In this document: positions 2,179 through 59,154 of the stretch, piece by piece
How the letters are laid out: every line of letters begins with the position of its first letter
Numbering within the stretch: the stretch's first letter is position 1
Assembly: GCF_024029335.1 (NCBI RefSeq)
Contig: NZ_CP097116.1
Span: 1,364,001 to 1,428,000 of the forward strand
Direction: 5' to 3'
From: Fructilactobacillus myrtifloralis
GTDB taxonomy: Bacteria; Bacillota; Bacilli; Lactobacillales; Lactobacillaceae
DNA: 64,000 bases
Program-made: the position numbers and the translations under genes
The notes under the pieces: generated by a model
The model's database searches: none
The model's input: the letters and a program-made list of their open reading frames with translations, nothing else
Told to the model about the DNA's origin: nothing

Positions 2179-3570
2179 ATGGATGTTTTAGTTAAAGACT
2201 TATATGCCAGTCCCAGTGAACACACCGACCAGTCATTAACCATTTCCGGCTGGATTCGGACGATTCGGGATTCAAAAAAAATTGCGTTTATTGAGGTGAA
2301 CGATGGTTCGTACATTAAGAACCTGCAGGTAATTGCCAAGCGAGATCAGTTAGCGAATTTTGAAGACGTGGTCAAGTTACCAATTAGTTCCACGGTGAAA
2401 GTTACCGGGAAACTAGTGGAAACTCCAGATGCCCAACAACCGTTTGAACTTCACGCCGATAGTGTTGCCATCGAAGGCGTGGCCGCACCCGATTATCCGC
2501 TGCAGAAGAAGAAACACTCACTCGAGTACTTGCGGACGATTGCGCACTTACGGCCTCGGACTAACACCTTCTACGCGGTGTTTCAGATTCGGTCGCTAGC
2601 TGCCTTTGCCATTCATGAATACCTGCAACATCACGACTTTGTGTACGTGAACACGCCCATCATCACCAGTAGTGATACTGAAGGGGCAGGGGAGATGTTT
2701 CGAGTGACAACGCTTAATCCTGACCACCCGGCCCAGACTGAGGACGGTCACACGGACTTTAGCCAAGATTTCTTTGGGCAGGAAACGAACTTGACGGTTA
2801 GTGGTCAACTCCAAGTGGAGCCCTTTGCCCTGGCCTTTCGAAACGTTTACACGTTTGGCCCGACCTTCCGGGCGGAAGATTCCCACACCAAGCGGCACGC
2901 AGCAGAATTTTGGATGATTGAACCCGAAATGGCCTTTGCGGGGCTACCGGAAACGGTTACGGAAATTGAAGGGTTACTCCAGTTTGTAGTGCAGTACCTG
3001 TTAGACCATGCCCAAGCCGACTTACAATTTTTAAACGACCATGTTGATCACCAGCTCTTGGAACGTCTGCAACAAACGGTTGCGGAACCGTTTGCCCGGA
3101 TTACCTATTCTAAGGCAATTGAATTGCTGCAGGAAGCAGACGTTGACTTTCAATACCCAGTGGAATGGGGTGTTGATTTAAAGGCCGAACACGAACAGTA
3201 CTTGGCCGAGCAAGTCTTTCACCGGCCGGTCTTTGTAACCGATTATCCCCGCGCAATCAAAGCCTTTTACATGCGGGACAATCCAGATGAAAAGACGGTT
3301 GCGGCCGTTGATTTACTGGTACCTCGGATTGGTGAACTGGTCGGAGGGAGTCAGCGAGAAGAACGCGAGGCCGTTTTAAGAGCTAAAATGCAGGAATTTA
3401 AGTTACCGGAAGCAGAATACGATTGGTATTTGGAACTACGTAAGTATGGTGGGACCAAGCATTCCGGGTTTGGAATTGGGTTTGAACGCCTGTTAATGTA
3501 CGTTACGGGGATGGATAACATCCGCGACGTAATTCCTTATCCACGGGTTCAAGGAAACATTAATTTCTAA
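2179..3570 (+). CDS. asnS: Asparagine--tRNA ligase
   Basis: 463 residues. The start at 2179 follows ATGGAGGAATT and lies downstream of the T-box terminator. The N-terminal ~110 residues form the OB-fold anticodon domain ([22 protein letters not shown]). The rest is a class IIb synthetase catalytic domain with motif 2 ([11 protein letters not shown], from about residue 230) and motif 3 ([10 protein letters not shown], from about residue 430). The [14 protein letters not shown] segment and the ...[12 protein letters not shown] region favour AsnRS over AspRS. It charges tRNA-Asn with asparagine in the cytoplasm. Expression is probably tuned by asparagine supply through the T-box. It is monocistronic, closed by a terminator. 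Confidence 0.96.
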
Positions 3571-30900: not shown

Positions 30901-33160
30901 TCAATCAGTTAGTCAATCGATCGAGAATAGCATTTCTGCTTCAGCAATGCGGTCCTTGAGTAACAAGATTGTTAGTCAAAGTGACAGTGCTTCCTTGAGT
31001 ACCTCGGCTGCTTCCAAGAGCGCTTCAATGTCAACAAGTATGAAGGTTGATAGCGAATCTGCATCTGACAGCATGGCAATTAACAACAGTAAGGAAGCAA
31101 GTCGCTCAACTTCGATGAGTACTTCGACAGTTAAGAGCTTGTCTAACTCAGTTTCATTTAGTGGATCTGGAATGAACTCCGCTTCAGTAAGCATGTCAGC
31201 AGCTCACAGTGCTTCCTTGAGTAGTTCCGCTACTGCTTCAACGAGTCTTTCTGCTAGTGCTTCGGCTTCGATGGAAAGTAACGCTGACTCCTTGAGCACC
31301 TCAGCCAGCGCTTCGACGATCTTGTCTGATCAAGATTCGTTGAGTAAGAGCATTTCGATCTTTAGATCTGCAAGTGACTCTGCTTCAACATCGTCATCGT
31401 TGTCTGCCAGTGCTTCGGCAAGTCAAAGTGCCAGCTTTGGTAAGTACACTTCAAACTCAGGTTCACAAAGTGATTCTTCAAGTGCTTCTATTTCTTACCA
31501 AAGTGAAAGTGCTTCAACTTCAACGTTCTTGTCAAAACAAGCTTCTATGAGTACAAGTACTTCCGCTGCAGTTAGTGAAGTCAAGAAGTCTGAAAGTGAC
31601 TTTAGTGCTTGGAAGAGTGCTACTTCCGTAAGTGGTTCGAAGAGCGCATCGATGAGTGAATCGACTTCAACTAGTAAGTCGGTTAGTCGTTCCGTAATTG
31701 ACAGCACGTCTGACTCAGCAATGCGGTCCTTGAGTCGCGACATTGTTAGTCAAAGTGATAGTGCTTCAGCAAGTACGTCGGCTGCCTCGAAGAGTGCTTC
31801 AACGTCAAGTAGCATGGAATCTGTGAGTGCTTCTGAATCTGCTAGTGCTGCTAACAGTAACAGTAAGCGGGCTAGTCGTTCTAGTTCTATGAGCACCTCA
31901 CAGGCCAAGAGCTTATCAGCTTCTGTTTCATTTCATGGTTCTGGTACTAATTCGGCTTCAACTAGCATGTCAGCAGCAAACAGCGCTTCAGCAAGTATGT
32001 CGGCTGTGAAATCCATGAGTACTTCTGCAAGTACTTCTGGTTCACTAGAAAGCAAGGTCAACTCCATGAGTGGATCGGCTAGTGCTTCCACGAGTCTGTC
32101 TGATAAGACGTCGACGAGTGTCAGTGCTTCTACCATCAACTCGGCAAGCACCTCTGCTTCGACATCATCATCGTTGTCTGCTAGTGCTTCTACTAGTCAT
32201 TTGACAAGCCGTTCAACGTACGCTTCAAACCCTGGATCACAAAGTGATTCAACGAGTGCCTCTGCTTCACAACAAAGTTACAGCGCTTCAAGATCGACGA
32301 GTCTTTCTCAATACACTTCCATGAGTATGAGTCGGTCAGCTTCACTTAGCTTTGTTTCGAAGTCTGCTAGTGATGATAGTGCTTCAACTAGCGCTACTTC
32401 GAAGAGTGCTTCGATGAGTACCTCGATGATTGACTCTGACGCAAGCAGTAAGTCGATGAGTGAATCAGCTATCATTAGTACGTCTGATTCAGCAGCCAAA
32501 TCGACTAGCATCTCAGACGCAAGTGTGAGTGCTTCAGGTTCAACTAGTGCTGCTTCTCGGAGTACAAGTGCTTCAACCTCTGCAAGTATTTCCGGTTCAA
32601 TTAGTAGTTCAATTGTTAACGACAACAATGCTGCTAACAATGGAAATGCTGGGAATAACGGAAATACCGGAACTAACGGTAATATGAATCCAACGCAATC
32701 AAACAACGGCAACGTTGCTGGTGGTAACGGATTTGCACCGGTAATTGGGAACGGAGCCTTAGCAGGTCTCGCAGCCGTTAATGGAAATGCCATTATTCCA
32801 GGCTTGGTTGGTGCAGCTGTGCAACAGTTGGCTACGAATAACAACGGTGGTAATAACCAGAATAATGCTGGCAATGCCAACGCTGCGAACGCAAATGCTA
32901 ACGCACAAGCCAATGCTAATGCGGCGAACGCGAATGCAAATAATCAAAATGCGAGTCGGAAGACTAAGCACAAGAAGCATTCGTCGAAGACGAAGGTTAA
33001 GGACTTTGCTAACAAGCAAAGAATGAACCAAAAGCAACACAAGAACACTAATTATGCAGAACCAATCGCCTTTGCCTTGGCAGGGTTCGGAATTCTTGGA
33101 TTGTTGTTGTTCTTGCTCTTCAAACGGAACAAGGATAATGACGATAATTCTCGAAACTAA
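18962..33160 (+). CDS. Giant serine-rich repeat adhesin 1 (4732 aa)
   Basis: ATG at 18962 follows AAAGGAGCCC. Residues 1-54 are a long signal peptide with the KxYKxGKxW-type motif (VRYRMYKAGRRW) and a hydrophobic core ending near TFADA, the hallmark of SecA2/SecY2 cargo. Then comes a stalk in which about every second residue is serine, with Ala, Thr, Asp, Lys and Met between. Residues ~300-370 are less repetitive; no large globular binding domain is seen. From about residue 1150 the stalk is built of 257/258-residue super-repeats. The C-terminus has an Asn/Ala-rich part, a basic part (KTKHKKHSSKTK) and one membrane span with a charged tail (LLLFLLFKRNK). No LPXTG motif is visible. Likely O-glycosylated by GtfA/GtfB and exposed at the cell surface. 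Confidence 0.95.
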   Translation: MSRFNQKRREAIFDNNKKVRYRMYKAGRRWLVAGTATVTGLAASLFLGVPSTFADAAQQVSKQVDENSDLLISNQKATIPSTSTSNSDTSSDSTSSVSESTTSESTSSVSESTDSTSNSSTSTSSTSESKSDSAESTSTTASQSESTTAAETQDASQVSEVGSASTSVVDGSMNIQLAAASNDSQSKSTYTTSEIDSISNSISDDYDSQSASASESLSLVSGSQLNDASVAASASKSTSASQVKDSQYNASVSNRDRSYSESNSRVDGSLSKSASASASRSKLGFDSMSQSNSTWLDSASASHANSTSYDSQWSFVSDALSRGANSFEIKYPNGGAPVSEQRSFKSEQDFLSIQASNLSSVENSALTSINDSHIIVQDSVSRSASKSASVSASNSTSNFDNLASSASASDSNVNKSISNYQRDSAQASMNYDKSVSASQSTSRQLSNDYSTSIEGSNSQLTSTSEYISKLRSQSLEAGVLESMSGSASQSASVLSTSASNSFSSYSSYLKSNSMNESKNYSITKSLTLSESEVIHNYNSVVESDASARASRMGSQSNSVSLSQSTSASQSVSDMDEVSSQSRSASTSSSLSTSDLNEQSTSASRSASATSASTTGVGSVSDSLSTSASVSANTSDSTSREAVNSGSLSAEHSMEQSLSRSQVSDDASVSDSKSASDSRSQADSFFQSYSKRQSMSISEQSNSASKSTYFSLGYSLSDSNSINASNVFSNYISTSATDSRASMDNSLSTSASKYSTSMPSATSEYLSDSTSKSKELINSEKASVSQSASLKSASDSNVSTSNSKSISLSQKSLSVESASITSASASRSLSLANSEQQSLTDQESASASATSASTSAANSNSDSISVSGSASASASTSSSLSAVGANSISASVSGSLSASGVANESASASASTNASQSTSTSIANDSQSQSKQASTSASISLSQLNSISDSMKEVGSGTNSASASTSASTSAETSTTAADSSSMSASVSDSSSVKHVDDSTAASASTSASDSNSAQLSISAANSSSDSANESVSASLSGSKTGPTNDSASASASVSASDSAVASTSQSQSASTSMAEKSMSDASASTSASSASASASASKSMSAESSNSASQSANKSTSASAADSMSNAAVSDSASKSTSQSLSESASNSKSISQSGMDSISDSEAKSMSDSIASDSMSASKSTSEASDSASASTSSESASASASTSKAVSESTSASASTSESDSVMKSVSESVSKSGSGMDSQSASNSASQSTSTSTSAAKSTSDSISTSASMQSKADSTSTSKSASTSKSDETSMSNSTSTANSASTSASKSASESASASKSQSVSISNADSTPGSRSTSVSTSMSEASDSASKSTSSSDSSSMSASKSASASANSKSTSDASASNSIASKSTSTSMSMSTSSSASKSASQSAMDSTSDSAAKSMSNSVASDSTSASASTSAKSDSASTSMSNASDSASKSASDFASNSKQASESTSMSNSEAKSLSDSVSTSGSGTDSASASKSAEQSASMSTSAADSASISASKSASMQSDADSMSTSASSSASQSDETSMSISTSTANSASTSASTSASASASASKSQSESNASNSTPGSASDSVSVSMSNASDSASKSMSFSDSSSMSASKSASASANSKSTSDASASDSAVSKSASMSTSTSTSASASKSASQSAMDSTSDSAAKSMSNSVASDSTSASASTSAKSDSASTSMSNASDSASKSASDFASNSKQASESTSTSNSEAKSLSDSVSTSGSGTDSESASNSAEQSASMSTSAAISASDSASKSASMQSDADSMSTSTSASASQSDETSMSISTSTVNSASTSASTSASASASASKSQSESNASNSTPGSASDSVSASMSNASDSASKSTSSSDSSSMSASKSASASANSKSTSDASASDSAVSKSASMSTSTSTSASASKSASQSAMDSTSDSAAKSMSNSVASDSTSASASTSAKSDSASTSMSNASDSASKSASDFASNSKQASESTSTSNSEAKSLSDSVSTSGSGTDSASASNSAEQSASMSTSAAISASDSASKSASMQSDADSMSTSTSASASQSDETSMSISTSTANSASTSASTSASASASASKSQSESNASNSTPGSASDSVSASMSNASDSASKSTSSSDSSSMSTSKSASASANSKSASDASVSMSNASNSASMSASMSASASASKSASQSAMDSSSDSAMKSMSNSVASESTQASASTSAKSDSASMSMSNASDSASKSMSDLASNSKQASESASMSTSTVKSLSDSVSMSGSGNNSASASTSAAQSASMSTSAAISASDSASTSASMQSDADSKSTSASASASQSDETSMSISTSTVNSASTSASTSASASASASKSQSESNASNSTPGSASDSVSASMSNASDSASKSTSSSDSSSMSTSKSASASANSKSASDASVSMSNASNSASMSASMSASASASKSASQSAMDSSSDSAMKSMSNSVASESTQASASTSAKSDSASMSMSNASDSASKSMSDLASNSKQASESASMSTSTVKSLSDSVSMSGSGNNSASASTSAAQSASMSTSAAISASDSASTSASMQSDADSKSTSASASASQSDETSMSISTSTVNSASTSASTSASASASASKSQSESNASNSTPGSASDSVSASMSNASDSASKSTSFSDATSMSTSKSASASANSKSASDASVSMSNASNSASMSASMSASASASKSASQSAMDSSSDSAMKSMSNSVASESTQASASTSAKSDSASMSMSNASDSASKSMSDLASNSKQASESASMSTSTVKSLSDSVSMSGSGNNSASASTSAAQSASMSTSAAISASDSASTSASMQSDADSKSTSASASASQSDETSMSISTSTVNSASTSASKSASESASASMSYSESISKYDSQPGSQSMSVSASMSNASDSASKSTSFSDATSMSTSKSASASANSKSASDASVSMSNASNSASMSASMSASASASKSASQSAMDSSSDSAMKSMSNSVASESTQASASTSAKSDSASMSMSNASDSASKSMSDLASNSKQASESASMSTSTVKSLSDSVSMSGSGNNSASASTSAAQSASMSTSAAISASDSASTSASMQSDADSKSTSASASASQSDETSMSISTSTVNSASTSASTSASASASASKSQSESNASNSTPGSASDSVSASMSNASDSASKSTSFSDATSMSTSKSASASANSKSASDASVSMSNASNSASMSASMSASASASKSASQSAMDSSSDSAMKSMSNSVASESTQASASTSAKSDSASMSMSNASDSASKSMSDLASNSKQASESASMSTSTVKSLSDSVSMSGSGNNSASASTSAAQSASMSTSAAISASDSASTSASMQSDADSKSTSASASASQSDETSMSISTSTVNSASTSASKSASESASASMSYSESISKYDSQPGSQSMSVSASMSNASDSASKSTSFSDATSMSTSKSASASANSKSASDASVSMSNASNSASMSASMSASASASKSASQSAMDSSSDSAMKSMSNSVASESTQASASTSAKSDSASMSMSNASDSASKSMSDLASNSKQASESASMSTSTVKSLSDSVSMSGSGNNSASASTSAAQSASMSTSAAISASDSASTSASMQSDADSKSTSASASASQSDETSMSISTSTVNSASTSASKSASESASASMSYSESISKYDSQPGSQSMSVSTSMSNASDSASKSTSFSDTTSMSTSKSASASANSKSASDASVSMSNASNSASMSASMSASASASKSASQSAMDSSSDSAMKSMSNSVASESTQASASTSAQSDSASASISSKLDSESTSNDKAVSESVNASQSTSMSASVAKSQSISASKSGSGTNSESASTSAMKSASLSGSATTSTSLSASVSASMDSQVNSKSASASASTSQSDETSMSVSASTVNSASASASKSASESASASKSYSESISKYDSQPGSQSMSVSTSMKEASKSASASTSLSDSTSLSQSKSASASDVWKSESDVSASNAAKVQSNSKSTSMLNSTSTSQSVSQSIENSISASAMRSLSNKIVSQSDSASLSTSAASKSASMSTSMKVDSESASDSMAINNSKEASRSTSMSTSTVKSLSNSVSFSGSGMNSASVSMSAAHSASLSSSATASTSLSASASASMESNADSLSTSASASTILSDQDSLSKSISIFRSASDSASTSSSLSASASASQSASFGKYTSNSGSQSDSSSASISYQSESASTSTFLSKQASMSTSTSAAVSEVKKSESDFSAWKSATSVSGSKSASMSESTSTSKSVSRSVIDSTSDSAMRSLSRDIVSQSDSASASTSAASKSASTSSSMESVSASESASAANSNSKRASRSSSMSTSQAKSLSASVSFHGSGTNSASTSMSAANSASASMSAVKSMSTSASTSGSLESKVNSMSGSASASTSLSDKTSTSVSASTINSASTSASTSSSLSASASTSHLTSRSTYASNPGSQSDSTSASASQQSYSASRSTSLSQYTSMSMSRSASLSFVSKSASDDSASTSATSKSASMSTSMIDSDASSKSMSESAIISTSDSAAKSTSISDASVSASGSTSAASRSTSASTSASISGSISSSIVNDNNAANNGNAGNNGNTGTNGNMNPTQSNNGNVAGGNGFAPVIGNGALAGLAAVNGNAIIPGLVGAAVQQLATNNNGGNNQNNAGNANAANANANAQANANAANANANNQNASRKTKHKKHSSKTKVKDFANKQRMNQKQHKNTNYAEPIAFALAGFGILGLLLFLLFKRNKDNDDNSRN
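22427..32620 (+). repeat. Super-repeat array in SRRP1, about 14 units of 771 or 774 bp
   Basis: Equivalent positions (the ATGGAC of AMDS or its diverged equivalent) fall at 22427, 23201, 23972, 24743, 25514, 26285, 27056, 27830, 28601, 29375, 30149, 30923, 31697 and 32471. Steps are 771 or 774 bases. Units from about 25.3 to 30.2 kb are almost identical at DNA level; the flanking units are diverged. Each unit carries one Pro-Gly-Ser, in a TPGSA or QPGSQ version; the latter version adds one codon. Assembly collapse or expansion is possible here. Confidence 0.93.
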
Positions 33161-33233: not shown

Positions 33234-33348
33234 ATAATTAGTGCTGATTGATAATCCTTATTTAATAATTGTATTATCCGAAAAATAGCGTATAATGAGT
33301 AAATCTAAGGTAATTATCAGAAAGCTAATTAGAAAGGGGTGCGGGATT

Positions 33349-36300
33349 ATGAAGAACTTCAACCAACAACGATTTGATGAATTATTCGCGAACAATCAAA
33401 AAGTGCGGTATCGGATGTATAAATCGGGAAAACGCTGGTTAATTGCAGGCACAGCTACGCTTAGCGGAGCTGCCGCCACGATTTGGTTGGGGACTCCGGT
33501 CATAATGGCCGAAGTTACTCCGACCGTTAATCGCGAACTAACCGATAAAGATCAAGTCCTGGTTAATGAAACTTCTTTAACGATTCCGGCCCATTCAGAA
33601 ACAGAATCGGAGGCTTCGTCAACTACAACGAGCTCATCCCTCCCAACTAGTTCGGTTAGTACCCAGACTGCAACGGAGACTGCTGAAAAAACGGTCGATT
33701 CGCAAAGTGCAGCAACTTCAGTAGGGGATCAGCAACCAAGCGAGTCCCAAACTTCACCAGCCCAAAGTAATCAACTGGCAGACCAACCAAGTCAGGAAGT
33801 AACCAGTCAAGTCACAGGGACAGCCACGCAGCCAAGTAGGAGTGATCAGACCGTTACTAACTCGACGAGTGAGCCAGCTCGTTCACAGTCGGAAGCACCA
33901 GCAACTAGTAATTCAGTGTCCACAACAGGTACAACTGCTGAGCAGTCGGTGAGTGATTCTGAAGTCTCAAATACTACTAATCACAGTGATTCAGAAGCGA
34001 ATAGCCGGGATGGTTCATTTGATAGCAGTGCAACTTCGCAAGCTTCTGCGAGTGAGCAGAATGACGCCCAAATTGAGCACTCGTTATCTGAAAACCAATC
34101 CATGAGTCTGGTAACAGCTGATTCACTAGCTGCTTCAACCAGTGCTTCTGAACTTCATGGACAAGCATTGGCAGTTACGAACTCGTCAACTGTGGAGAAC
34201 CGGAGTGATTTTCCGACTGGTCCAGCGGGGGAAAACAAGCAAGTAAATATTTTTATGGATGCAATTGATCACGCGTTAAAGCTAGTTAACTCGAGCTTGG
34301 CTGAACTGGGGATTTCGGCCAACGTTGATAACGTTTTGAGTGGTAATGATTACATCTATGACGGTAATTCCGGCTCAATTCAAATTAGAACCAGTCGGGG
34401 TTGGTTTAACATCTTTGGCAACCAGACTTCCAATCTTTACATTTGGAATCCGACTGCAAACGGGGGTGCTGGCGCTTGGGAACTGGTGGGTGCCTATACA
34501 ACCACCGATTATAATCAGGACGTTACGGTTCAAATTAACCCTGCCGACTATGGGCTTAACCCGGGGGATGAAATGTATTTTCAAGCGGGCGTACAAAGTC
34601 GGGATTTAGCTAATCGAGTTGCCGATTACATTATCAGTCAATTTGGCAATAATTTGATTGACCGGGTGTTTAGACGGTCGCTCGAGGATGCGGTTAATGC
34701 TTATAATGCCGTTGTCGGCATTGCCAACAGTGAGTCTTATTCGAAAGTATTGGGCTTACCAGTGGTGCTGAATTTCCCGTCGCTGTCGGCCTCTGCTTCG
34801 GGCAGCTTGCATGATTCATTGGCAACGTCTTTATCAGAAAGTATGTCAACGAGCTGGGGATCAGAGTCGCAAAGGTTAACCCCGTCGCAGTTGGCTTCTT
34901 TGAGTGGATCGCAAGCTGATTCGATTCAGGAGAGTCTCAGTAACTTACGGAGTCTTTCGCATGCGATTGATTTCAGCATTTCCTATACATCGTTAGATAT
35001 TCCAAGTTTGATGACGTCGGCATCCATTGTTAATTCAATGAGCATCCAAACGTCACGGTTACACTCCTATACCTCAAGTTTTCTTGGGGATAATCAGCTG
35101 GAAATCAGTTCATCGCTAAGTGTGAAGTATTCTGAGGAAGCCAGCACTAGTTATCAAAGTAGCTTACAAGCTGCCCAAGCGTTACAAGCCCAATTGGATT
35201 CGCAACTAACGTCGGCCAGTGATTCGCTTGACCTACAAGCCAACTCAGCCTTTTATTCAACTAGTACAGCAACGAGTCAGGCATTTCAAACTTCGGTCCA
35301 GCATTCCCAATCCACGTCGCAGTCAATCGTAGATGCAAGTGGGGCGGTTAGTGCGTATAATTCCACGAGCTATAGTGTGTCTAAATCACGGAGTGAGCAC
35401 GATGTATTACCATTTTGGGTATGGGGTCGGGCTTCTGATTCAATGTCCATGTCAGATGCCTATTCAACCGAGTATTCGATTGTGAACTCGCGGAATCAGG
35501 CCCCACAGTCGAAGCGGACGTCCCAGTCGATTGCAACTTCGCTTTCGCAGTCCTTGCGGGGCAGTGCACAATTGTCAGCGTCAACTAGTCAATCTTTGAT
35601 GGAATCTAGCAGTGCTTCAACTAGTACCTCGATCTCAACGCCAGCTTCGGTAGCCACCTCAATTTCACAGGTGGCTTCGACGGCTTATAATCAATCGTTG
35701 ATCGCAAGTTTAGCATTGTACTACGCTTCGCTAAGCATTTCGGATAGTCGTGAAGCATCTGACGTGGCTAGTGCATCAGCACAAGCAAGTACCAATGAGA
35801 TGCGCGCTTCAGCAGCGGCTTCAACTTCAAGTAGTCAATCTGCGAACCAGAGCCAGTCCCAATCCGTCTTAGCAGCAAGGGCCGGTGAATCTAGCTATGA
35901 TTCGGCAGTAGCCTCTGACAGTGCTTCAACCTCGGATTGGACTAGTCAAGCGGCAGCTACCAGTGCCTCTCTGTCGGCAGCAACGTCATTAAGTAGTCAG
36001 AACCAGATGGACGCAATGAGTACGTCCGCACGACGGTCAGTGAATGCGAGCCTTTCGATGTCGTTGGCAACCAGTCAAGCGGTGCAAATGAGTACTTCTG
36101 CTTCTGCAGCGGATTCGATGAATGCACAATCGGAGAATACGGATAGTCGGGGATCAGAATCGCGAAGTTCCTCGTTAGAACAAAGCAGGATTAATTCATT
36201 TTCAACCTCAAGACGGATGAGTCAAAGCGGGGGAGCCTCAGCTTCATTTAGTTTGAGTGCGCAGCAGCAAAGTTGGCGATCGGCTAGTCGGTCAGTTTCG

Positions 36301-39300
36301 ATTGCAAACAAGGTGCTTTCTAATTCGTTGGCAACTAGTTCGGCTCAGTCCCAATCAGCCTCGCATAGTAAGTTAGACTCACTGTCAACTTCAGCTTCGC
36401 AAAGTAACTCGCATTCGGATTCGTTAAGCACTTCTAACCGTGCTTCAGTTTCGCAATCTAATTTTGAAAGTGCTTCTACTTCCTTAAGTGACTCGATATC
36501 AAAAGAACGGTCAGAAAGCACTTCGGCATCGAAACAGAGCTCTGAGAGCGTCTCAATTTCAGAGTCCAATTCCGAAGTTGAATCGACTTCACTTTCTGAA
36601 TCTGAAAGTACGTCAATTTCGCTAAGCAATTCTGGATCAAAAGCAGAATCAGAAAGTGCTTCGGAATCGAAACAGAGTTCAGAGAGCGTTTCAACTTCAG
36701 AATACAATTCAGATGTTAAATCGACTTCACTTTCTGGATTAGGAAGTACTTCAATTTCGCAAAGCAATTCTGGATCAAAAGCTGACTCAGAAAGTGCTTC
36801 AGGATCAAAACAAAGTTCTGAAAGTGCCTCAACTTCAGAATACAATTCCAAAGTTACATCAACATCACTTTCCGAATCTAGAAGTACCTCAATTTCACTA
36901 AGCAATTCCATATCAAAAGCAGACTCAGAAAGTACTTCAGCATCGAAACAAAGTTCTGAAAATGCCTCAACCTCAGAATCCAATTCTGAAGTTGAATCGA
37001 CTTCACTTTCTGAATCAGGAAGTACTTCAACTTCGCTAAGTGATTCTGGATCAAAAGCAGAATCAGAAAGTGCTTCGGCATCGAGACAAGGGTCAGAGAG
37101 CACCTCTACTTCAGAATCTAACTCAGAAGCTGAATCGACTTCACTTTCCAAGTCTGGCAGTAATTCGGTATCTTTGAGCGATTCAATATCAAAAACAGAT
37201 TCTGAAAGCACTTCATCATCTAAGCAAAGTTCAGAGAGCGCATCTATCTCAGAATCCAATTCAGAGGTTAAATCTGCCTCACTTTCTGAATCGGAGAGTA
37301 CTTCAACTTCGCTAAGTGATTCTGTATCAAAAGCTGAATCCGAAAGTACTTCAGGATCAAAACAAAGTTCAGAGAGCGCCTCAACATCAGAATCTAATTC
37401 GGAGGTTAAGTCTGCTTCACTTTCTGAATCTGAAAGTACGTCAATTTCGCTAAGCAATTCTGTATCAAAAGCAGAATCCGAAAGTGCTTCGGAATCGAAA
37501 CAGAGTTCAGAGAGCGTTTCAACTTCAGAATCTAACTCAGAAGCTGAATCGACTTCACTTTCCAAGTCTGGCAGTAATTCGGTATCGTTGAGTAATTCAG
37601 CATCAAAAGAGAGCTCAGAAAGTACTTCAGAATCGCAACAAAGTTCCGATAGTACTTCAACATCAGAATCTAATTCAGAGGTTAAATCTACTTCACTATC
37701 CGAATCTGGAAGTACTTCAATTTCGCTAAGCAATTCTGTATCAAAATCAGAATCAGAAAGTACTTCAGGATCGAAACAAAGTTCTGAGAGTACCTCAACA
37801 TCAGAATCAAATTCTGAAGTTACATTAACATCACTTTCCGAATCTAGAAGTACCTCAATTTCGCTAAGCAATTCTGTATCAAAAGCAGAATCAGAAAGTA
37901 CTTCGGCATCGAAACAGAGTTCCGAGAGTGCTTCGACCTCAGAATCCAATTCCGAAGTTAAGTCCACATCGCATTCTGAATCAGGAAGTACGTCAACTTC
38001 GCTAAGCGATTCAGTATCGAAAGCAGAATCAGAAAGCACTTCTAACTCCAAACAAAGTTCCGAGAGCAGTTCAACCTCAGAATCTAATTCCAAAGTTAAA
38101 TCTACTTCGCTATCTGAATCAGGGAGTACGTCAACTTCGCTAAGCGATTCAGTATCAAAAGCCGAATCAGAAATTACTTCGACATCGAAACAAAGTTCTG
38201 CGAGTGCTTCAACCTCTGAATCTAATTCCGAAGTTAAATCTACTTCGCTATCTGGATCTGTTAGTACCTCAGTATCTTTGAGTGATTCAGTATCGAAAGC
38301 AGAATCAGAAAGTACTTCTGACTCCAAACAAAGTTCTGAAAGCACCTCAACATCAGAATCCAATTCCGAAGTTGAATCGACTTCACTTTCTGAATCAGGT
38401 AGTAAGTCAGCTTCGCTAAGCGATTCTGTATCAAAATCCGAATCAGAAAGTACTTTAGGATCTAAGCAAAGTTCCGAGAGTTCCTCAACCTCAGAATCCA
38501 ATTCAGAGGTTAAGTCAACTTCACTATCCAAATCTGGAAGTACATCAACTTCTCTAAGTGAATTGACTTCAAAATCCGAATCAGAAAGTACATCAACTTC
38601 GAAGCAAAGTTCTGAAAGCACATCAACATCAGAATCTAATTCTGATGTTAAATCTGCTTCACTTTCCGATTCTGAAAGTACTTCGGTATCGTTGAGTAAT
38701 TCAATATCAAAAGCAAATTCTGAAAGTAATTCAGCATCGAAACAAAGTTCTGAAAGCATTTCGACCTCAGAATCCAATTCCGAGGTTGAGTCTGCTTCGC
38801 TTTCCGAATTAGGTAGTACGTCAACTTCGCTGAGTGACTCGACGTCAGAAGCAGATTCCGAGAGTACCTCGAAATCGAAGCAACATTCTGAGAGCACATC
38901 AACTTCGCTTTCCGTATCGGATAGTACCTCAGCTTCACTAAGTGATTCGGTATCAAAGGCCGAATCTGAAAGTACTTCAGGATCAAAACAAGGATCCGAG
39001 AGTTTTTCAACTTCAGAATCTAATTCAGAGGTTAAATCAACATCACTTTCCGAGTCTGATAGTAATTCGGTGTCTCTGAGCGATTCAATATCAAGATCAG
39101 AATCCGAAAGTACTTCGGCATCGAAACAGGATTCAGAGAGTGCTTCGACCTCAGAATCCAATTCAGAGGTTAAGTCTGCTTCACTTTTCGAGTCTGGTAG
39201 TACATCAACTTCGTTAAGTAATTCTGCGTCAAGATCAGAATCAGAAAGTACTTCAGCTTCGAAACAGAGTTCCGAGAGCGCCTCAACATCAGAATCTAAT

Positions 39301-42300
39301 TCGGATGTTAAATCTGCCTCATTTTCAGAATCAGAGAGTAATTCAACTTCGCTAAGTGATTCGATATCCACGGCAGATTCAGAAAGAACTTCGGAATCTA
39401 AGCAAAATTCGGAAAGCACTTCTACTTCAGAATCCAATTCGGATGTTAAGTCTACTTCACTCTCCGAATCTGAAAGCAGTTCAACTTCAGAATCTAATTC
39501 AGAGGTTAAATCAACTTCACTTTCAGAGTCTGATAGTAATTCGGTATCTCTAAGCGATTCAATATCAAAGGCAGATTCTGAAAGCACTTCAGAATCGAAA
39601 CAAAGTTCTGAAAGTGCCTCAACCTTAGAATCCAATTCCAAAGTTACATCAACATCACTTTCCGAATCCGGAAGTACTTCAACTTCTCTAAGCAATTCTA
39701 TATCAAAAGTAGAATCAGAAAGTACGTCAATTTCGCTAAGTGATTCGACGTCAGAAGCAGATTCCGAAAGTACCTCGGAATTGAAGCAACATTCTGAGAG
39801 AACATCAACTTCGCTTTCCATATCGGGTAGTATCTCAGTTTCACTAAGTGACTCGGTATCAAAGGCCGAATCTGAAAGTACTTCAGGATCAAAACAAAGA
39901 TCTGAGAGTGTTTCAACTTCAGAGTCCAATTCCGAAGTTAAATCTATTTCACTTTCTGAATCAGATAGTACGTCAACTTCACTAAGCAATTCTGCATCAA
40001 AAGCGGACTCGGAAAGTTCATCGGCATCGAAACAAAGTTCAGAGAGCGCTTCAACATCAGAATCTAATTCGGAGGTTAAGTCTGCTTCACTTTCCAAGTC
40101 TGATAGTACTTCAACTTCATTAAGTGATTCAGTATCGAAAGCAGAATCAGAAAGTACTTCGGCATCGAAACAAGATTCTGAAAGCAGTTCAACCTCAGAA
40201 TCCAATTCCGAGGTTAAGTCTGCTTCACTTTCTAAATCAGAAAGTACTTCAACTTCGCTAAATGACTCAGTATCAAAAGCAGATTCCGAAATCACCTCAG
40301 TATCTAAGCAAAGTTCTGCGAGTGCTTCAACCTCAGAATCTAATTCCGAAGTTAAGTCTACTTCGCTATCTGGGTCTGGTAGTACCTCGGTATCTTTGAG
40401 TGATTCAGTATCGAAAGCAGATTCCGAAATCACCTCAGTATCTAAGCAAAGTTCTGCGAGTGCTTCAACCTCAGAATCTAATTCCGAAGTTAAATCTACT
40501 TCGCTATCTGAATCAGGAAGTACGTCAATTTCGCTAAGTAATTCTGTATCAAAAGCCGAATCAGAAAGTAGTTCGGCATCGAAACAGGGTTCCGAGAGTG
40601 TTTCAAATTCGGAATCCAATTCCGAGGTTAAATCGACTTCACTTTCTGAATCGGGTAGTACGTCAATTTCGCTAAGCAATTCTATATCAATAGCAGAATC
40701 AGAAAGCATTTCAGCTTCGAAACAGAGTTCCGAGAGCGCCTCAATTTCAGAATCTAATTCCGAAGTTAAATCGACTTCGCTTTCCGAATCTGATAGTAAT
40801 TCGGTATCTCTAAGTGATTCAATATCAAAAGCCGAATCTGAAAGTACTTCAGGATCGAAACAGAGTTCCGAGAGTACCTCAATTTCAGAGTCTAATTCAG
40901 AGATTAAATCGACTTCACTCTCCGAATCTGATAGTAATTCGGTATTTCTAAGCGATTCAATATCAAAAGCAGATTCCGAAAGTACTTCGGGATCAAAACA
41001 AAGTTCCGAGAGCGTCTCAACATCAGAATCCAATTCGGATGTTGAGTCTGCCTCATTTTCAGAATCAGAGAGTAATTCAACTTCACTAAGTGGTTCGACA
41101 TCTACATCAGATTTCGAAAGTACTTCAGCGTCGAAACAAAGTTCTGAAAGCAATTCAACTTCAGAATCTAATTCCGAGGTTAAGTCTGTTTCATTTTCCG
41201 AGTCTGAAAGTACTTCGGTATCGTTGAGTAATTCAGCATCAAAAGAGAGCTCAGCAAGCACTCCAGCATCTGAACAAGGTTCGGAGAGTGCCTGGACCTC
41301 GGAATCCAATTCCGAAGTTACATCAACATCACTTTCCGAATCTGTTAGTGGGTCGATTTCGCTAAGCAATTCTGTATCTAAAGTAAATTCAGAAAGTGAT
41401 TCAGAATCGGGTAGTATTTCAACATCAGAATCTAATTCCGAAGTTACATCGACTTCACTATCCGAATCTGGTAGTATATTCGGATCTCTGAGTTCTTCAA
41501 TATCAAAAGCAGATTCCGAAAGTACTTCGGAATCTAAGCAACATTCTGAGAGTACCTCAACCTCAGAGTCCGATTCCGAAATTACATCGACTTCGCTTTC
41601 AGAATCGGGGAGTACGTCAACTTCGCTAAGCAACTCTACATCTACAGCAGATTCAGAGAGCACCTCAGACTCCAAACAAAGTTCTGCGAGTGCCTCGACC
41701 TCAGAATTTAATTCAGAGGTTAAGTCTGTTTCAATTTCCGAATCCGGCAGTACCTCAATATCTTTGAGTGATTCAATATCAAAAGCAGATTCCGAAAGTA
41801 CTTCGGAATCTAAGCAAAGTTCCGAGAGCGCCTCAATATCAGAATCTAATTCGGAGGTTAAGTCTGCTTCACTTTCCAAGTCTGATAGTACTTCAACTTC
41901 ATTAAGTAATTCTGTATCAAAATCCGAATCAGAAAGTACTTCGGCATCGAAACAAGATTCTGAAAACAGTTCAACATCAGAATCCAATTCAGAGGTTAAA
42001 TCAACATCACTTTCCGAATCTGGAAGTACGTCAATTTCGTTAAGTAATTCTGTATCAATAGCAGAATCAGAAAGCATTTCAGCTTCGAAACAGAGTTCCG
42101 AGAGCGTCTCAACATCAGAATCCAATTCGGAGGTTAAGTCTGCCTCACTTTCAGAATCGGATAGTATGTCAACTTCGCTAAGTGAATCTACATCTACAGC
42201 AGATTCAGAAAGCACCTCAGAATCGAAGCAAAGTTCCGAGAGTGTTTCAACTTCTCTTTCCGAGTCCGATAGTAGTTCTGTATCTTTGAGCGATTCAGTA

Positions 42301-44235
42301 TCGAAAGCAGAATCAGAAAGTACTTCTGACTCCAAACAAAGTTCAGAAAGCAATTCAACCTCGGAATCTAATTCCGAAGTTACATCAACATCACTTTCCG
42401 AATCTGTTAGTGGGTCAATTTCGCTAAGCAATTCTATATCTAAATTAGATTCAGAAAGTACTTCAGAATCGGGTAGTATTTCAACATCAGAGGCCAATTC
42501 GGCAGTTAAGTCTGCCTCACTTTCAGAATCAGATAGTACGTCAACTTCGCTAAATGACTCAGTATCCAAAGCGGACTCAGAAAGTACTTCATCATCTAAA
42601 CAAGATTCCGAGAGCGTCTCAATTTCAGATTCTAATTCAGAGGTTGAATCGACTTCACTATCCGAATCTGAAAGTACGTCAACTTCGCTAAGCGATTCAG
42701 TATCGAAAGCAGAATCAGAAAGTACTTCAGACTCCAAACAAAGTTCTGAAAGCAGTTCAACTTCAGAATCTAATTCCGAGTTTAAATCCACTTCACTTTC
42801 TGAATCAGGTAGTACGTCAACTTCGCTAAGTGAATCGACTTCAAAATCCGAATCAGAAATTATATCAGCATCGAAGCAAAGTTCTGAGAGTGCTTCAACT
42901 TCAGAATCCAATTCCGAAGTTAAGTCAACATTGCTTTCCGAATCAGAAAGTACGTTAACTTCACTAAGTGACTCTGTATCAAAAGCAGATTCCGAAAGCA
43001 CCTTGGGATCAAAACAAAGTTCGCAGAGTGCTTCAGTTTCAGAATCAAATTCGGATGTTAAGTCTGTTTCACTCTTAGAATCTGGAAGCACGTCAACTTC
43101 GTTAAGTAACTCGATGTCGAAATTCGAATCAGAAAGTACTTCTGCATCGAAACAAAGTTCCGAGAGTGTTTCAACTTCAGAATCTAGTTCAGAGGTTAAA
43201 TCAACTTCATTCTCCGAATCGGTTAGTGAGTCGATTTCGCTAAGTGATTCTGTATCCACAGCAGATTCCGAAAGCACATCATCATCGGAATTCAACTCCG
43301 AAGTTACGTCTGCCTCGATTTCAGAGTCTGAAAGTATTTCAGTATCGTTAAGTGGTTCGATATCAAAAGCAGATTCCGAAAGCACATCAATTTCAGAATC
43401 CAATTCTGAGATTAGATCTGCTTCGCTTTCAAAATCGGGGAGTATTTCAAATTCGTTAAGTGACTCGGAATCGAAAGCGGATTCAGAGAGCACATCAGCT
43501 TCTTATTCGAGTTCCGAATCTAACTATTCTTCGCTTTCCGAATCTGAGAGTGCGTCAACTTCACTTTTCGAATCCGGTAATGAGTCAATTTCGCTAAGTG
43601 AATCAGCATTTAATTCAGAAGTTAAGTCTGCTTCGATTTCTCACTCTAATTCGTCAGCGGCCTCGACTTCACGGTCTGTATCGGAGAGGACGTCGTCTAC
43701 AAGTAGCACCACTTCCGAGCAAACCACAGAAACGAGTACCACAACCACCTCACCAACTGCTGCAAGTGATGGTGGGTCAGTAAACCCGGTTGGAGTTAAC
43801 AACGCTGGGCAACTCCGGCAGCAACCAGGAACGCCAACTGATGCCACCAGTGGACAATCCCGTCCCGGAGTTGTAAATAGCCATTACGAAGTAGCATCAC
43901 AACCACAAGCAGGGGAAAATAATGATAATGGGATTTTGCAGGCCAGTGATCATCCGGTTGCCCAAACCATTACCGGTCTTGCTCATCCTGGTGGGACGGA
44001 GAACGTTGCTAGTCTGGAAAGTTCGCAGTCGACTCCAGCTACCAACGGGACCACGCAGCAACGGTCAACGAAGACTAAGCAGCCAACTGCAACTAACCAG
44101 CATCAGCAGGCAGCGCATGCGCGTAAAAGTGGCCTAAGTGAGCACGCCGTTAGCTTTGGAGCAGCGGGTGCCACGGGCTTGCTACTCCTAGCTCATCTAG
44201 GAAGACAACTTAGAAGAAAACATCGCAAACGCTAG
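33349..44235 (+). CDS. Giant serine-rich repeat adhesin 2 (3628 aa) with a globular domain
   Basis: ATG at 33349 lies 8 bases after GAAAGGGGT; an upstream ATG at 33295 has no ribosome site. The signal peptide carries VRYRMYKSGKRW and ends near MAEV. After a Ser/Thr-rich segment (residues ~55-280) there is a non-repetitive domain of about 200 residues (roughly 285-490) with aromatic and Asn-rich stretches such as SRGWFNIFGNQTSNLYIWNP, the likely ligand-binding region. A Ser-x stalk follows; from about residue 1050 to 3380 it consists of 46-residue repeats with Glu, Lys, Gln and Val at fixed places. The C-terminus is a TTETSTTTTSPT linker, a basic region and one membrane span ending RRKHRKR. 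No LPXTG is seen. Surface adhesin, cargo of SecA2/SecY2. Confidence 0.95.
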   Translation: MKNFNQQRFDELFANNQKVRYRMYKSGKRWLIAGTATLSGAAATIWLGTPVIMAEVTPTVNRELTDKDQVLVNETSLTIPAHSETESEASSTTTSSSLPTSSVSTQTATETAEKTVDSQSAATSVGDQQPSESQTSPAQSNQLADQPSQEVTSQVTGTATQPSRSDQTVTNSTSEPARSQSEAPATSNSVSTTGTTAEQSVSDSEVSNTTNHSDSEANSRDGSFDSSATSQASASEQNDAQIEHSLSENQSMSLVTADSLAASTSASELHGQALAVTNSSTVENRSDFPTGPAGENKQVNIFMDAIDHALKLVNSSLAELGISANVDNVLSGNDYIYDGNSGSIQIRTSRGWFNIFGNQTSNLYIWNPTANGGAGAWELVGAYTTTDYNQDVTVQINPADYGLNPGDEMYFQAGVQSRDLANRVADYIISQFGNNLIDRVFRRSLEDAVNAYNAVVGIANSESYSKVLGLPVVLNFPSLSASASGSLHDSLATSLSESMSTSWGSESQRLTPSQLASLSGSQADSIQESLSNLRSLSHAIDFSISYTSLDIPSLMTSASIVNSMSIQTSRLHSYTSSFLGDNQLEISSSLSVKYSEEASTSYQSSLQAAQALQAQLDSQLTSASDSLDLQANSAFYSTSTATSQAFQTSVQHSQSTSQSIVDASGAVSAYNSTSYSVSKSRSEHDVLPFWVWGRASDSMSMSDAYSTEYSIVNSRNQAPQSKRTSQSIATSLSQSLRGSAQLSASTSQSLMESSSASTSTSISTPASVATSISQVASTAYNQSLIASLALYYASLSISDSREASDVASASAQASTNEMRASAAASTSSSQSANQSQSQSVLAARAGESSYDSAVASDSASTSDWTSQAAATSASLSAATSLSSQNQMDAMSTSARRSVNASLSMSLATSQAVQMSTSASAADSMNAQSENTDSRGSESRSSSLEQSRINSFSTSRRMSQSGGASASFSLSAQQQSWRSASRSVSIANKVLSNSLATSSAQSQSASHSKLDSLSTSASQSNSHSDSLSTSNRASVSQSNFESASTSLSDSISKERSESTSASKQSSESVSISESNSEVESTSLSESESTSISLSNSGSKAESESASESKQSSESVSTSEYNSDVKSTSLSGLGSTSISQSNSGSKADSESASGSKQSSESASTSEYNSKVTSTSLSESRSTSISLSNSISKADSESTSASKQSSENASTSESNSEVESTSLSESGSTSTSLSDSGSKAESESASASRQGSESTSTSESNSEAESTSLSKSGSNSVSLSDSISKTDSESTSSSKQSSESASISESNSEVKSASLSESESTSTSLSDSVSKAESESTSGSKQSSESASTSESNSEVKSASLSESESTSISLSNSVSKAESESASESKQSSESVSTSESNSEAESTSLSKSGSNSVSLSNSASKESSESTSESQQSSDSTSTSESNSEVKSTSLSESGSTSISLSNSVSKSESESTSGSKQSSESTSTSESNSEVTLTSLSESRSTSISLSNSVSKAESESTSASKQSSESASTSESNSEVKSTSHSESGSTSTSLSDSVSKAESESTSNSKQSSESSSTSESNSKVKSTSLSESGSTSTSLSDSVSKAESEITSTSKQSSASASTSESNSEVKSTSLSGSVSTSVSLSDSVSKAESESTSDSKQSSESTSTSESNSEVESTSLSESGSKSASLSDSVSKSESESTLGSKQSSESSSTSESNSEVKSTSLSKSGSTSTSLSELTSKSESESTSTSKQSSESTSTSESNSDVKSASLSDSESTSVSLSNSISKANSESNSASKQSSESISTSESNSEVESASLSELGSTSTSLSDSTSEADSESTSKSKQHSESTSTSLSVSDSTSASLSDSVSKAESESTSGSKQGSESFSTSESNSEVKSTSLSESDSNSVSLSDSISRSESESTSASKQDSESASTSESNSEVKSASLFESGSTSTSLSNSASRSESESTSASKQSSESASTSESNSDVKSASFSESESNSTSLSDSISTADSERTSESKQNSESTSTSESNSDVKSTSLSESESSSTSESNSEVKSTSLSESDSNSVSLSDSISKADSESTSESKQSSESASTLESNSKVTSTSLSESGSTSTSLSNSISKVESESTSISLSDSTSEADSESTSELKQHSERTSTSLSISGSISVSLSDSVSKAESESTSGSKQRSESVSTSESNSEVKSISLSESDSTSTSLSNSASKADSESSSASKQSSESASTSESNSEVKSASLSKSDSTSTSLSDSVSKAESESTSASKQDSESSSTSESNSEVKSASLSKSESTSTSLNDSVSKADSEITSVSKQSSASASTSESNSEVKSTSLSGSGSTSVSLSDSVSKADSEITSVSKQSSASASTSESNSEVKSTSLSESGSTSISLSNSVSKAESESSSASKQGSESVSNSESNSEVKSTSLSESGSTSISLSNSISIAESESISASKQSSESASISESNSEVKSTSLSESDSNSVSLSDSISKAESESTSGSKQSSESTSISESNSEIKSTSLSESDSNSVFLSDSISKADSESTSGSKQSSESVSTSESNSDVESASFSESESNSTSLSGSTSTSDFESTSASKQSSESNSTSESNSEVKSVSFSESESTSVSLSNSASKESSASTPASEQGSESAWTSESNSEVTSTSLSESVSGSISLSNSVSKVNSESDSESGSISTSESNSEVTSTSLSESGSIFGSLSSSISKADSESTSESKQHSESTSTSESDSEITSTSLSESGSTSTSLSNSTSTADSESTSDSKQSSASASTSEFNSEVKSVSISESGSTSISLSDSISKADSESTSESKQSSESASISESNSEVKSASLSKSDSTSTSLSNSVSKSESESTSASKQDSENSSTSESNSEVKSTSLSESGSTSISLSNSVSIAESESISASKQSSESVSTSESNSEVKSASLSESDSMSTSLSESTSTADSESTSESKQSSESVSTSLSESDSSSVSLSDSVSKAESESTSDSKQSSESNSTSESNSEVTSTSLSESVSGSISLSNSISKLDSESTSESGSISTSEANSAVKSASLSESDSTSTSLNDSVSKADSESTSSSKQDSESVSISDSNSEVESTSLSESESTSTSLSDSVSKAESESTSDSKQSSESSSTSESNSEFKSTSLSESGSTSTSLSESTSKSESEIISASKQSSESASTSESNSEVKSTLLSESESTLTSLSDSVSKADSESTLGSKQSSQSASVSESNSDVKSVSLLESGSTSTSLSNSMSKFESESTSASKQSSESVSTSESSSEVKSTSFSESVSESISLSDSVSTADSESTSSSEFNSEVTSASISESESISVSLSGSISKADSESTSISESNSEIRSASLSKSGSISNSLSDSESKADSESTSASYSSSESNYSSLSESESASTSLFESGNESISLSESAFNSEVKSASISHSNSSAASTSRSVSERTSSTSSTTSEQTTETSTTTTSPTAASDGGSVNPVGVNNAGQLRQQPGTPTDATSGQSRPGVVNSHYEVASQPQAGENNDNGILQASDHPVAQTITGLAHPGGTENVASLESSQSTPATNGTTQQRSTKTKQPTATNQHQQAAHARKSGLSEHAVSFGAAGATGLLLLAHLGRQLRRKHRKR
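36480..43400 (+). repeat. 138-bp tandem repeats in the SRRP2 stalk, about 50 units
   Basis: The unit encodes 46 residues of the form SKAESESTSxSKQSSES, then xSTSESNSEVKSxSLSES, then xSTSxSLSxSx. Equivalent starts at 37741, 37879 and 38017 are exactly 138 bases apart. Copies are diverged from one another, unlike the near-identical SRRP1 units, and some are shortened (for example near 38880, 39470 and 41400). Confidence 0.88.
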
Positions 44236-56827: not shown

Positions 56828-57358
56828 ATGTGGCACACGATTCTTTCCGAATTAGCACAGCAAGACGTTCCAATTGAAGCGACCGAATTAACCTTATTAA
56901 ACCAGGCACCTCGGATCTTTGTTTACGGTGGTGGCCGCTCCGGACTGGCGTTACGCGGGCTGGCGATGCGATTAATGCAGCTCGGTAAAACGGCCTATGT
57001 AGTGGGAGAAACGACGACCCCAGCGATTCAAGCGGGGGACTTGTTACTAGTAGCCTCGGCCTCTGGAACTACGACCGGGACCGTCAACATTGCAACTACG
57101 GCCCACCAAGTGGGAGCTCAGTTGTGGTTATTGTCAACCACGAACGATTCGCCCCTCGCAAAACTGGCGGACGTAGTGACCATTTTACCGGGTAAGAGCA
57201 AGGATCGAGTGGGATCAGAGCAAGCCTCAATTCAACCGATGGGGAGTTTATTTGAACAATCGGTGTGGTTATTTGGGGATGCGTTAACGCTGGCCTACAT
57301 GGATTTTGCGGGTATTTCTGAAGCAGAGATGCGCAAACGGCACGCTAATTTAGAGTAA
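56828..57358 (+). CDS. hxlB: 6-phospho-3-hexuloisomerase
   Basis: 176 residues; single SIS domain with VYGGGRSGLALRGLAMRLMQLG near residue 30 and DLLLVASASGTTTGTVN near residue 75. SEAEMRKRHANLE is a typical C-terminus of the family. It interconverts 3-hexulose 6-phosphate and fructose 6-phosphate, the partner step of hxlA. The pair is co-transcribed and closed by a terminator. Confidence 0.93.
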   Translation: MWHTILSELAQQDVPIEATELTLLNQAPRIFVYGGGRSGLALRGLAMRLMQLGKTAYVVGETTTPAIQAGDLLLVASASGTTTGTVNIATTAHQVGAQLWLLSTTNDSPLAKLADVVTILPGKSKDRVGSEQASIQPMGSLFEQSVWLFGDALTLAYMDFAGISEAEMRKRHANLE

Positions 57359-57526: not shown

Positions 57527-57535
57527 TGGTAAAAT
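57527..57535 (+). promoter_or_regulatory. Extended -10 promoter of the candidate small RNA
   Basis: TGGTAAAAT is a TGn extended -10 element; TTGAAT at 57509-57514 is a possible -35 with a 15-bp spacer. The predicted transcript start is at about 57541-57543, exactly at the 5' base of the long closing stem described in the next entry. Confidence 0.55.
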
Positions 57536-57541
57536 TCTAGA

Positions 57542-57691
57542 TGGTAACTTTCATTATCTGAAGTACTCAAATTATCGGAACACTTACACTCACATTATCC
57601 GAAGCACTCAAGCTATTTCTGAGCCACTCAGGAATGAATTGTTACCAACTGGGAAAGCCCCACTGACGTTAGTTAGTGGGGCTTTCTTTTT
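57542..57691 (+). ncRNA. Candidate structured small RNA (~150 nt) with own promoter and terminator
   Basis: No open frame of note lies here, yet there is an extended -10 promoter at one end and a strong terminator at the other (GAAAGCCCCACT 57653-57664 with AGTGGGGCTTTC 57675-57686, then T run). TGGTAAC (57542-57548) pairs with GTTACCA (57641-57647) and TTCATT (57550-57555) with AATGAA (57633-57638), a 13-bp closing helix with a tiny internal loop. Inside are four related elements of 17-22 bases at 57553, 57571, 57594 and 57613, of the type ATTATCnGAAGnACTCA, each ending in CTCA; the last also forms CTGAG/CTCAG. I do not recognise the family. The rest of 57406-57841 is non-coding. Confidence 0.6.
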
Positions 57692-57841: not shown

Positions 57842-58417
57842 ATGGAAACTAGGGTAAAAAAACAGCACCGAAAAAACGTAAAAAAATTTCTATTAGGATT
57901 GTTACTGGTTATTCCAGTTGCTTTTTTAGTGGGCTATGAGATTGCGCAAGCAGGTTATCATAATGATAGTAAACCGGTAAAACCAACGCCCAGCAAGCAA
58001 TCTAAGCAGCACGTTTGGGATAAGGGTGAATCCCGTGATTCGGAAACTAGTGAAGGAGCTCCGACAACGAGGGGACAACAAGGGCAGAACAGTGGGAATG
58101 GTAATGCTAGGAACCCAACGACGCACGCCCAAACTCGTCAGCAAACGGTTAATCAGGATACGGGAACTAATAACGACGGGGAAACGACTGACCCCTTGAG
58201 TGGACCTGGAGCTGGATGTGCGGTTGTTAATCGTTACCAGACTGATCCAGAAACCGGAAAAATCGTTGATGTTTCTACTGGTCAGGAAGCAACTGAAGCC
58301 GAAAAAAATGAATTTATGCAGAATCAGGAAGAGCAACGGGATTATTTAAAGCGGGCAAATGAAAAAATTAACCAAATGAATCAACCGGAAAATTCAAATT
58401 CAAGCGACGAACATTAA
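57842..58417 (+). CDS. Signal-anchored low-complexity protein A (191 aa)
   Basis: ATG 57842 after AAGGAG. A basic N-terminus (KKQHRKNVKK), one membrane span at residues ~15-35 (FLLGLLLVIPVAFLVGYEIA), then an outside region rich in Ser, Thr, Asn, Gln and Gly without clear fold, and a short ordered-looking C-terminal part with DPETGKIVDVSTGQEATEAE. It has one Cys (AGCAVV). The product is probably extracellular and membrane-tethered. The following gene has the same plan, so the two form a tandem pair. No family recognised. Confidence 0.7.
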   Translation: METRVKKQHRKNVKKFLLGLLLVIPVAFLVGYEIAQAGYHNDSKPVKPTPSKQSKQHVWDKGESRDSETSEGAPTTRGQQGQNSGNGNARNPTTHAQTRQQTVNQDTGTNNDGETTDPLSGPGAGCAVVNRYQTDPETGKIVDVSTGQEATEAEKNEFMQNQEEQRDYLKRANEKINQMNQPENSNSSDEH

Positions 58418-58443: not shown

Positions 58444-59154
58444 ATGGAAAAACGGGTTAATTTATATCACAAGGGAAAGAAAGGCAAAATCATAATCATT
58501 GGTGTGCTGGGATTGATTTTGTTAGTTATCTTGGGAAGCTATGCGTTAGCACGCTCAGAGCATAAAATAACTACCGAGCAACCGCGGAAGCATACAAGAG
58601 CTAGTGGCAAGAAAACTTCGGTTCAACCAGCTAAAAAGCAGAAGGTTACGGAACCAGCTAGTCCACAACCTTCTAATTTTGCTACTGGGACGCAATCAGA
58701 TGCTACCAATGACGATCGTTCAACGGATCAAGAAAAGCTCGCGCAACAAGCCGAATATAATCGGGAAAAATTTCGGAAACGGGCCATTGATGCTCAGAAC
58801 GCAACCCATGCGTTGGTAACAAACCCGGATGGCACCAGAAGTTACGTTACAAAAGCTCAAGCGGAACAAGCGGGGACGATGACCACGTTGTGGGATATGG
58901 GACCAGATGGTGATGTCGTTCCAGTTTATGATTCTAAGGAAATGACGAACCAAAGTAACGATGATAGTGCTAATAATGAACCTCAGAATAATTCAGATGG
59001 AAATGTAACGGATGACGACAACTATGAGGTAACTTCTGGAGACGATGAAAATACAGTGATTGTAAAAAATAAAAAGACTGGAGAAACGATTCAGAAGAAA
59101 TCTGTTGGAACCCCTGATTGGGATTATGTTCATGACCGTCCGATTACATATTAG
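58444..59154 (+). CDS. Signal-anchored low-complexity protein B (236 aa)
   Basis: ATG 58444, 26 bases after gene A, with GATGGAGG somewhat far upstream. Same plan as gene A: basic start (HKGKKGK), membrane span (IIIIGVLGLILLVILGSYAL), disordered Thr/Ser/Pro-rich linker, and a C-terminal part including VTNPDGTRSYVTKAQAEQAG and VIVKNKKTGETIQKKSVG. No Cys. Probably co-transcribed with A. An anchored extracellular or cell-wall-facing role is likely, but no function is suggested. It is the last gene of ordinary base composition before the very AT-rich AbiH gene. Confidence 0.7.
   Translation: MEKRVNLYHKGKKGKIIIIGVLGLILLVILGSYALARSEHKITTEQPRKHTRASGKKTSVQPAKKQKVTEPASPQPSNFATGTQSDATNDDRSTDQEKLAQQAEYNREKFRKRAIDAQNATHALVTNPDGTRSYVTKAQAEQAGTMTTLWDMGPDGDVVPVYDSKEMTNQSNDDSANNEPQNNSDGNVTDDDNYEVTSGDDENTVIVKNKKTGETIQKKSVGTPDWDYVHDRPITY

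Follow-up and report, generated by a model that had tools for sequence, protein, structure and literature searches.

A putative trans-encoded antisense small RNA of Fructilactobacillus complementary to the coding repeats of two serine-rich-repeat adhesin genes

Pairing of a small RNA within a coding sequence, with decay of the message as its consequence, is established for MicC and ompD (PMC11347162). For antisense and trans-acting RNAs of Staphylococcus aureus, loop contact, spreading to a long duplex and cleavage of the sRNA-mRNA duplexes by RNase III have been described (PMC3861533). The regulation of serine-rich-repeat adhesins is poorly known, and no mention of any RNA regulator is made in a review devoted to those of streptococci (PMC7661464). 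We found no antisense RNA directed against serine-rich repeats in the literature, which is weak evidence because coverage was partial.

We analysed a window of 64,000 nucleotides (G000:C1:1364001-1428000) from a 1.46-Mb genome of the genus Fructilactobacillus. On its + strand lies a small RNA gene of ~150 nt (57542-57691), preceded by an extended -10 element, TGgTAAAAT (57527-57535, + strand), that places the predicted +1 at ~57541; the sequence upstream holds no convincing -35 element. The promoter element TTATGGTAAAATTCTA is unchanged in the sister species G007, and the DNA just upstream of it has diverged. The RNA is predicted to be closed by a helix whose 5' arms (57542-57555) pair with 3' arms at 57633-57647, namely UGGUAAC (57542-57548) with GUUACCA (57641-57647) over 7 bp and UUCAUU (57550-57555) with AAUGAA (57633-57638) over 6 bp. 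Four elements follow one another along the same strand: ATTATCTGAAGTACTCA (57553-57569), ATTATCGGAACACTTACACTCA (57571-57592), ATTATCCGAAGCACTCA (57594-57610) and the degenerate CTATTTCTGAGCCACTCA (57613-57630). The fourth appears mostly structural, as it pairs back with the first in the predicted fold. An 18-nt apical loop, ACACUUACACUCACAUUA (57580-57597), is unpaired in the predicted folds of the G000 and G007 RNAs, and the unit ends in an intrinsic terminator with a T-run (57653-57691, hairpin at ~57653-57686). The first-pass annotation had described this ~150-nt unit, with its extended -10, its 7- and 6-bp arms and its four elements, and all these parts are present as it had described them. 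The terminator hairpin that it reported is present as well, with 17 bp in our model instead of 12.

The whole unit has a folding energy of -57 kcal/mol (z = -8.4 relative to shuffled sequences); the domain without the terminator reaches -27.2 (z = -4.4), and none of 200 shuffles was equally good. The strict patterns of a simple scanner list neither its promoter nor its terminator. No ORF of at least 20 aa is present on either strand of the unit, and its - strand is a broken serine-repeat fragment, so that a coding gene was rejected for both strands. The Rfam search that the first-pass annotation had proposed gave no match at gathering scores in the window, on which basis the known Rfam RNAs (6S, SRP, tmRNA, RNase P, riboswitches and known sRNAs) were discarded. 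Sub-threshold matches to the unit were weak and mostly located over the terminator.

The 5' neighbour of the RNA gene is a 6-phospho-3-hexuloisomerase-like gene (56828-57358) coding for a SIS domain and followed by its own terminator-like hairpin, and the 3' neighbour (57842-58417) codes for a small protein whose family is unknown. The latter gene is adjacent to another small-protein gene (58444-59154). Both products carry a membrane stretch at the N-terminus and end in a low-complexity tail, neither has a match in Pfam, and both genes are also found in G007. The DNA behind the isomerase gene varies by species, with a transposase-like insertion in G001 and small antitoxin-like genes in G003 and G004. 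The isomerase gene of G004 (G004:C1:728350-728891; L049, L050) is split over two frames, one part of which contains a stop.

The first-pass annotation had missed the identity of the repeats, and the target that they designate is our main result. In reverse complement, the repeats of the RNA match the serine repeats of two giant genes, SRRP1 (G000:C1:825807-818767, - strand, 2347 aa) and SRRP2 (G000:C1:832351-825923, - strand, 2143 aa). The guess of the first-pass annotation that they might be binding sites for target mRNAs fits with their being antisense to the coding repeats of these two adhesin genes, and its other guess, binding sites for a protein, is not required. A BLAST search of the RNA against its own genome yielded 35 matches at E <= 10. 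Those at E <= 1e-3 are the RNA gene itself and only two + strand blocks (821983-822782 and 827183-829321), which fall within SRRP1 and SRRP2, and every match in these blocks is antisense. Conversely, when the SRRP2 repeats were searched against ten genomes of the genus, the sole match outside SRRP genes was the RNA locus, in G000 and G007. Each SRRP protein combines a KxYKxGKxW signal and an LPxTG anchor with a long serine repeat, and the adjacent genes include one for a GtfA-like glycosyltransferase and one that is weakly GtfB-like (family models were run on SRRP2 and its neighbours, with GtfA and GtfB matches under curated cut-offs and a weak one for GtfB). With these features, the two targets meet the criteria for serine-rich-repeat adhesins. 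The anti-repeat core of the RNA spans 57546-57618 (+ strand), and each of the four elements is an antisense copy of a 21-nt half-repeat coding for S-(A/V/T)-S-D-(S/N). The RNA gene (~1421541) is ~590 kb away from its putative targets (G000:C1:818767-832351). It thus meets, by sequence only, the definition of a trans-encoded sRNA, with its own promoter and terminator away from the target. A cis-antisense RNA was rejected, as the gene is not opposite the target at the same locus.

Long open frames are found on the + strand opposite the SRRP genes (G000:C1:819026-822913 and 826137-829460), and likewise on the - strand of the window at 36345-43493. These frames opposite giant serine-rich genes, of 1100-2400 aa, presumably reflect a serine-codon effect and could be mis-annotated as genes. 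The window also harbours two adjacent giant genes (18962-33160 and 33295-44235), coding for proteins of 4732 and 3646 aa, both with KxYKxGKxW matches. Neither of them forms a strong predicted duplex with the RNA.

Between G000 and G007, the RNA shows 6 differences over 150 nt and no gap (4.0%; 96% conserved), whereas divergence is 29.4% and 20.0% in the two intergenic flanks, which also contain gaps, and the neighbour gene has changes at 23 of 91 four-fold sites (25%). There are no differences in the 14 nt of the 5' arm or in the 43 nt of the terminator part (57649-57691), and two in 61 nt of the core (binomial P ~5e-6 at a 25% neutral rate). The paired bases of the 7+6 bp helix are identical, two changes being located in the bulge between the arms, and the closing helix therefore gives no covarying pairs between the two genomes. 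Given 96% conservation where flanks and synonymous sites differ by 20-29%, this comparison indicates that the RNA is under selection as an RNA. The first-pass proposal of a new structured small RNA, for which conservation of the paired arms in relatives was to be a check, is thus borne out in G007: the arms are kept, and selection, a stable fold and the lack of an Rfam family and of an ORF all support it. A dead inverted fragment of an adhesin gene, folding by chance, would fit the inverted copying of coding repeats and the stops and frame break seen on the - strand; with arms, core and terminator so strongly conserved relative to the diverged flanks, and with such a tight fold, this explanation is hardly credible. 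The target adhesin gene of G007 (G007:C1 ~1251841; L041) has an in-frame TAA just before the serine repeat, which might be tolerated, mark a pseudogene or stem from a sequencing error. The target may thus be broken in that species, though the RNA is conserved.

Duplex energies were computed with the 73-nt core, without accounting for mRNA structure. The predicted duplexes extend over about 70 bp and reach -100.4 kcal/mol with SRRP1 (mRNA nt 3024-3097; G000:C1:822711-822784) and -104.3 kcal/mol with SRRP2 (mRNA nt 3069-3142; G000:C1:829210-829283). Nearly all bases of the 18-nt apical loop are paired with the SRRP2 mRNA in the latter, and we propose this loop as the seed, a role inferred from the models. 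The G007 RNA is predicted to pair with its own SRRP at -104.6 kcal/mol, and that adhesin gene has four sites <= -95 kcal/mol within the first 330 nt of its repeat. By comparison, dinucleotide-shuffled cores gave -38.3 +/- 4.0 kcal/mol (best -52.7). The best value was -49.1 kcal/mol in the rest of the window, when the complement of the RNA gene itself was excluded, -45.3 kcal/mol in the other G000 regions tested, including other long KxYKxGKxW genes, and -33 kcal/mol on the strand opposite the SRRP messages. Complementarity to an mRNA that is specific and beyond chance is thus established at the level of predicted duplexes, and expression, pairing in the cell and repression are inferred.

Each SRRP mRNA contains 29-30 non-overlapping sites < -40 kcal/mol, 12-13 of which are < -60, and weaker sites recur every 70-100 nt through much of the repeat. 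With up to ~30 sites, the adhesin mRNA might conversely act as a sponge, sequestering the RNA so that less of it reaches other targets. We consider this unlikely, since no other target of comparable strength was detected, with none in the genome BLAST search and at most -49 kcal/mol in the other regions tested, although a target recognized by a short seed is not excluded. In each of the three adhesin genes, the best-paired site is found where the long serine repeat begins. This location could also suit an RNA that raises the output or quality of the adhesin, either by stabilizing the mRNA or by slowing ribosomes there, which would let glycosylation or export keep up. We found no precedent for such an effect in the literature searched, and RNase III usually cleaves long duplexes (review PMC3861533); a positive role seems very unlikely.

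The target site itself bears signs of constraint. When SRRP1 and SRRP2 are aligned and scored per 75 nt, 60-84% of positions are identical near the beginning of the long repeat, but 97% in 3026-3100. Among 1357 75-nt segments of the SRRP1 repeat, the one closest to SRRP2 is 3022-3096, with 74/75 identical positions (median 80%, 95th percentile 88%), and it coincides with the best duplex site. The 26 codons of this site display no synonymous and two amino-acid differences, versus 44 and 10, respectively, in the next 100 codons (Fisher P = 2e-6). A lack of synonymous differences would be expected if the nucleotide sequence itself were needed for pairing. Alternatively, local gene conversion may have produced the conserved site, and the exact homology between the two genes is uncertain because of the repeats. 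Changes in the RNA that are compatible with G-U pairs are in excess (4 vs 1 for SRRP2, 5 vs 3 for G007), but not significantly so; wobble bias goes in the right direction and was not retained as proof of pairing, as the changes are too few. One core change, U/C at 57564 versus GAGTAC/GAGTGC, follows the target, but only one position is concerned, and each species has both forms. Another possibility is that the RNA is functional and of adhesin origin but now has some other role, such as protein binding, its complementarity being a mere trace of ancestry. Sequence identity alone would yield complementarity, and the copied part includes neither the terminator nor the 3' half of the closing helix. 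Nevertheless, the core hardly changed during the divergence of the adhesin repeats, whose best-paired site has diverged least and is devoid of synonymous changes, and predicted pairing stays near -100 in both species, all of which makes this scenario improbable.

The RNA is present in only 2 of 397 Lactobacillaceae genomes, both of one genus (G000 and G007), and none of the other genus members, of ten in all, has this type of serine repeat. It is absent from the corresponding locus of G001, G003, G004, G008 and G009. A wider family was rejected given its absence from the other 395 genomes, as was a mobile or phage origin, since plasmids, phages and viral contigs gave no match. No antisense copy was found elsewhere in the genome for the tested repeats of a related SRRP of G004 or for a 3-kb piece of the window gene 18962-33160, nor was there one for the tested repeats of a giant serine-rich gene of G003. 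With none in these three giant genes, we discarded the idea that adhesins in general each have an anti-repeat RNA of their own.

The explanation that we favour, and regard as probable from sequence analyses, is a trans-encoded antisense sRNA that pairs in the coding region of the serine-rich-repeat adhesin messages and lowers adhesin output. As the RNA mirrors the repeats and is predicted to pair over ~70 bases, it is probably a dedicated switch for these surface proteins. An inverted copy of a fragment of the ancestral adhesin repeat array would have landed in the intergenic DNA that follows the hexulose-phosphate pathway genes and would then have acquired a promoter, a closing helix and a terminator. 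An inverted-duplication origin has been proposed for some plant microRNAs, an analogous birth route. The RNA would keep the anti-repeat strand in a closed domain with the 18-nt loop exposed. This loop might recognize the first serine repeats of the SRRP1 and SRRP2 mRNAs, ~3 kb into the coding sequence, from where pairing could extend to ~70 bp. The long duplex would be cut by RNase III, block ribosomes, or both, resulting in less full-length, wall-anchored adhesin. An RNase III gene is present in G000; its role, the sign of the effect and the expression of the RNA are inferred. Hfq (PF17209) was not found in G000, where control searches were positive, and the RNA does not qualify as an Hfq-dependent sRNA. 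One objection is that the RNA, paired so far inside the coding region, could be displaced by elongating ribosomes. More tentatively, and with somewhat less than even confidence, we envisage a polyvalent anti-repeat RNA, an inverted copy of its target that may coat the giant mRNA at tens of sites, set the dose or length of the adhesin and constrain its synonymous codons. Such an RNA would explain codon constraint within low-complexity repeats, and its derivation from the repeats of its own target would reveal a simple birth route for new bacterial regulators. Two targets, one RNA and one defined 74-nt site make for a clean test.

In kind, this is a trans-encoded base-pairing RNA. MicC-ompD of Salmonella and similar sRNAs (PMC11347162, PMC4911921) are likewise trans-encoded, with pairing in the coding region and mRNA decay. 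MicC, however, uses a short seed, RNase E and Hfq, in contrast with ~70 bp, many repeated sites and no detected Hfq for the Fructilactobacillus sRNA. RNAIII of S. aureus, which acts on spa, coa and rot (PMC3861533), is similarly a structured Gram-positive RNA directed against surface-protein mRNA, with loop contact and RNase III, but it forms short pairings at the ribosome binding sites of many genes and is no inverted copy of target coding repeats. LhrC of Listeria also combines a small size with redundant binding sites against an adhesin mRNA, lapB (PMC4132741); its redundancy resides in CU-rich motifs that impede lapB translation, whereas here it mirrors the coding repeats of the adhesins. 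Cis-antisense RNAs, such as type I antitoxins and plasmid copy-number RNAs, share the kissing loop, the long complementarity and RNase III, but not the distance of ~590 kb from the target, the imperfect complementarity and the two targets. Relative to the examples found, the differing traits are the inverted copy of target coding repeats, the ~70-bp pairing deep in the coding region and the many sites per message.
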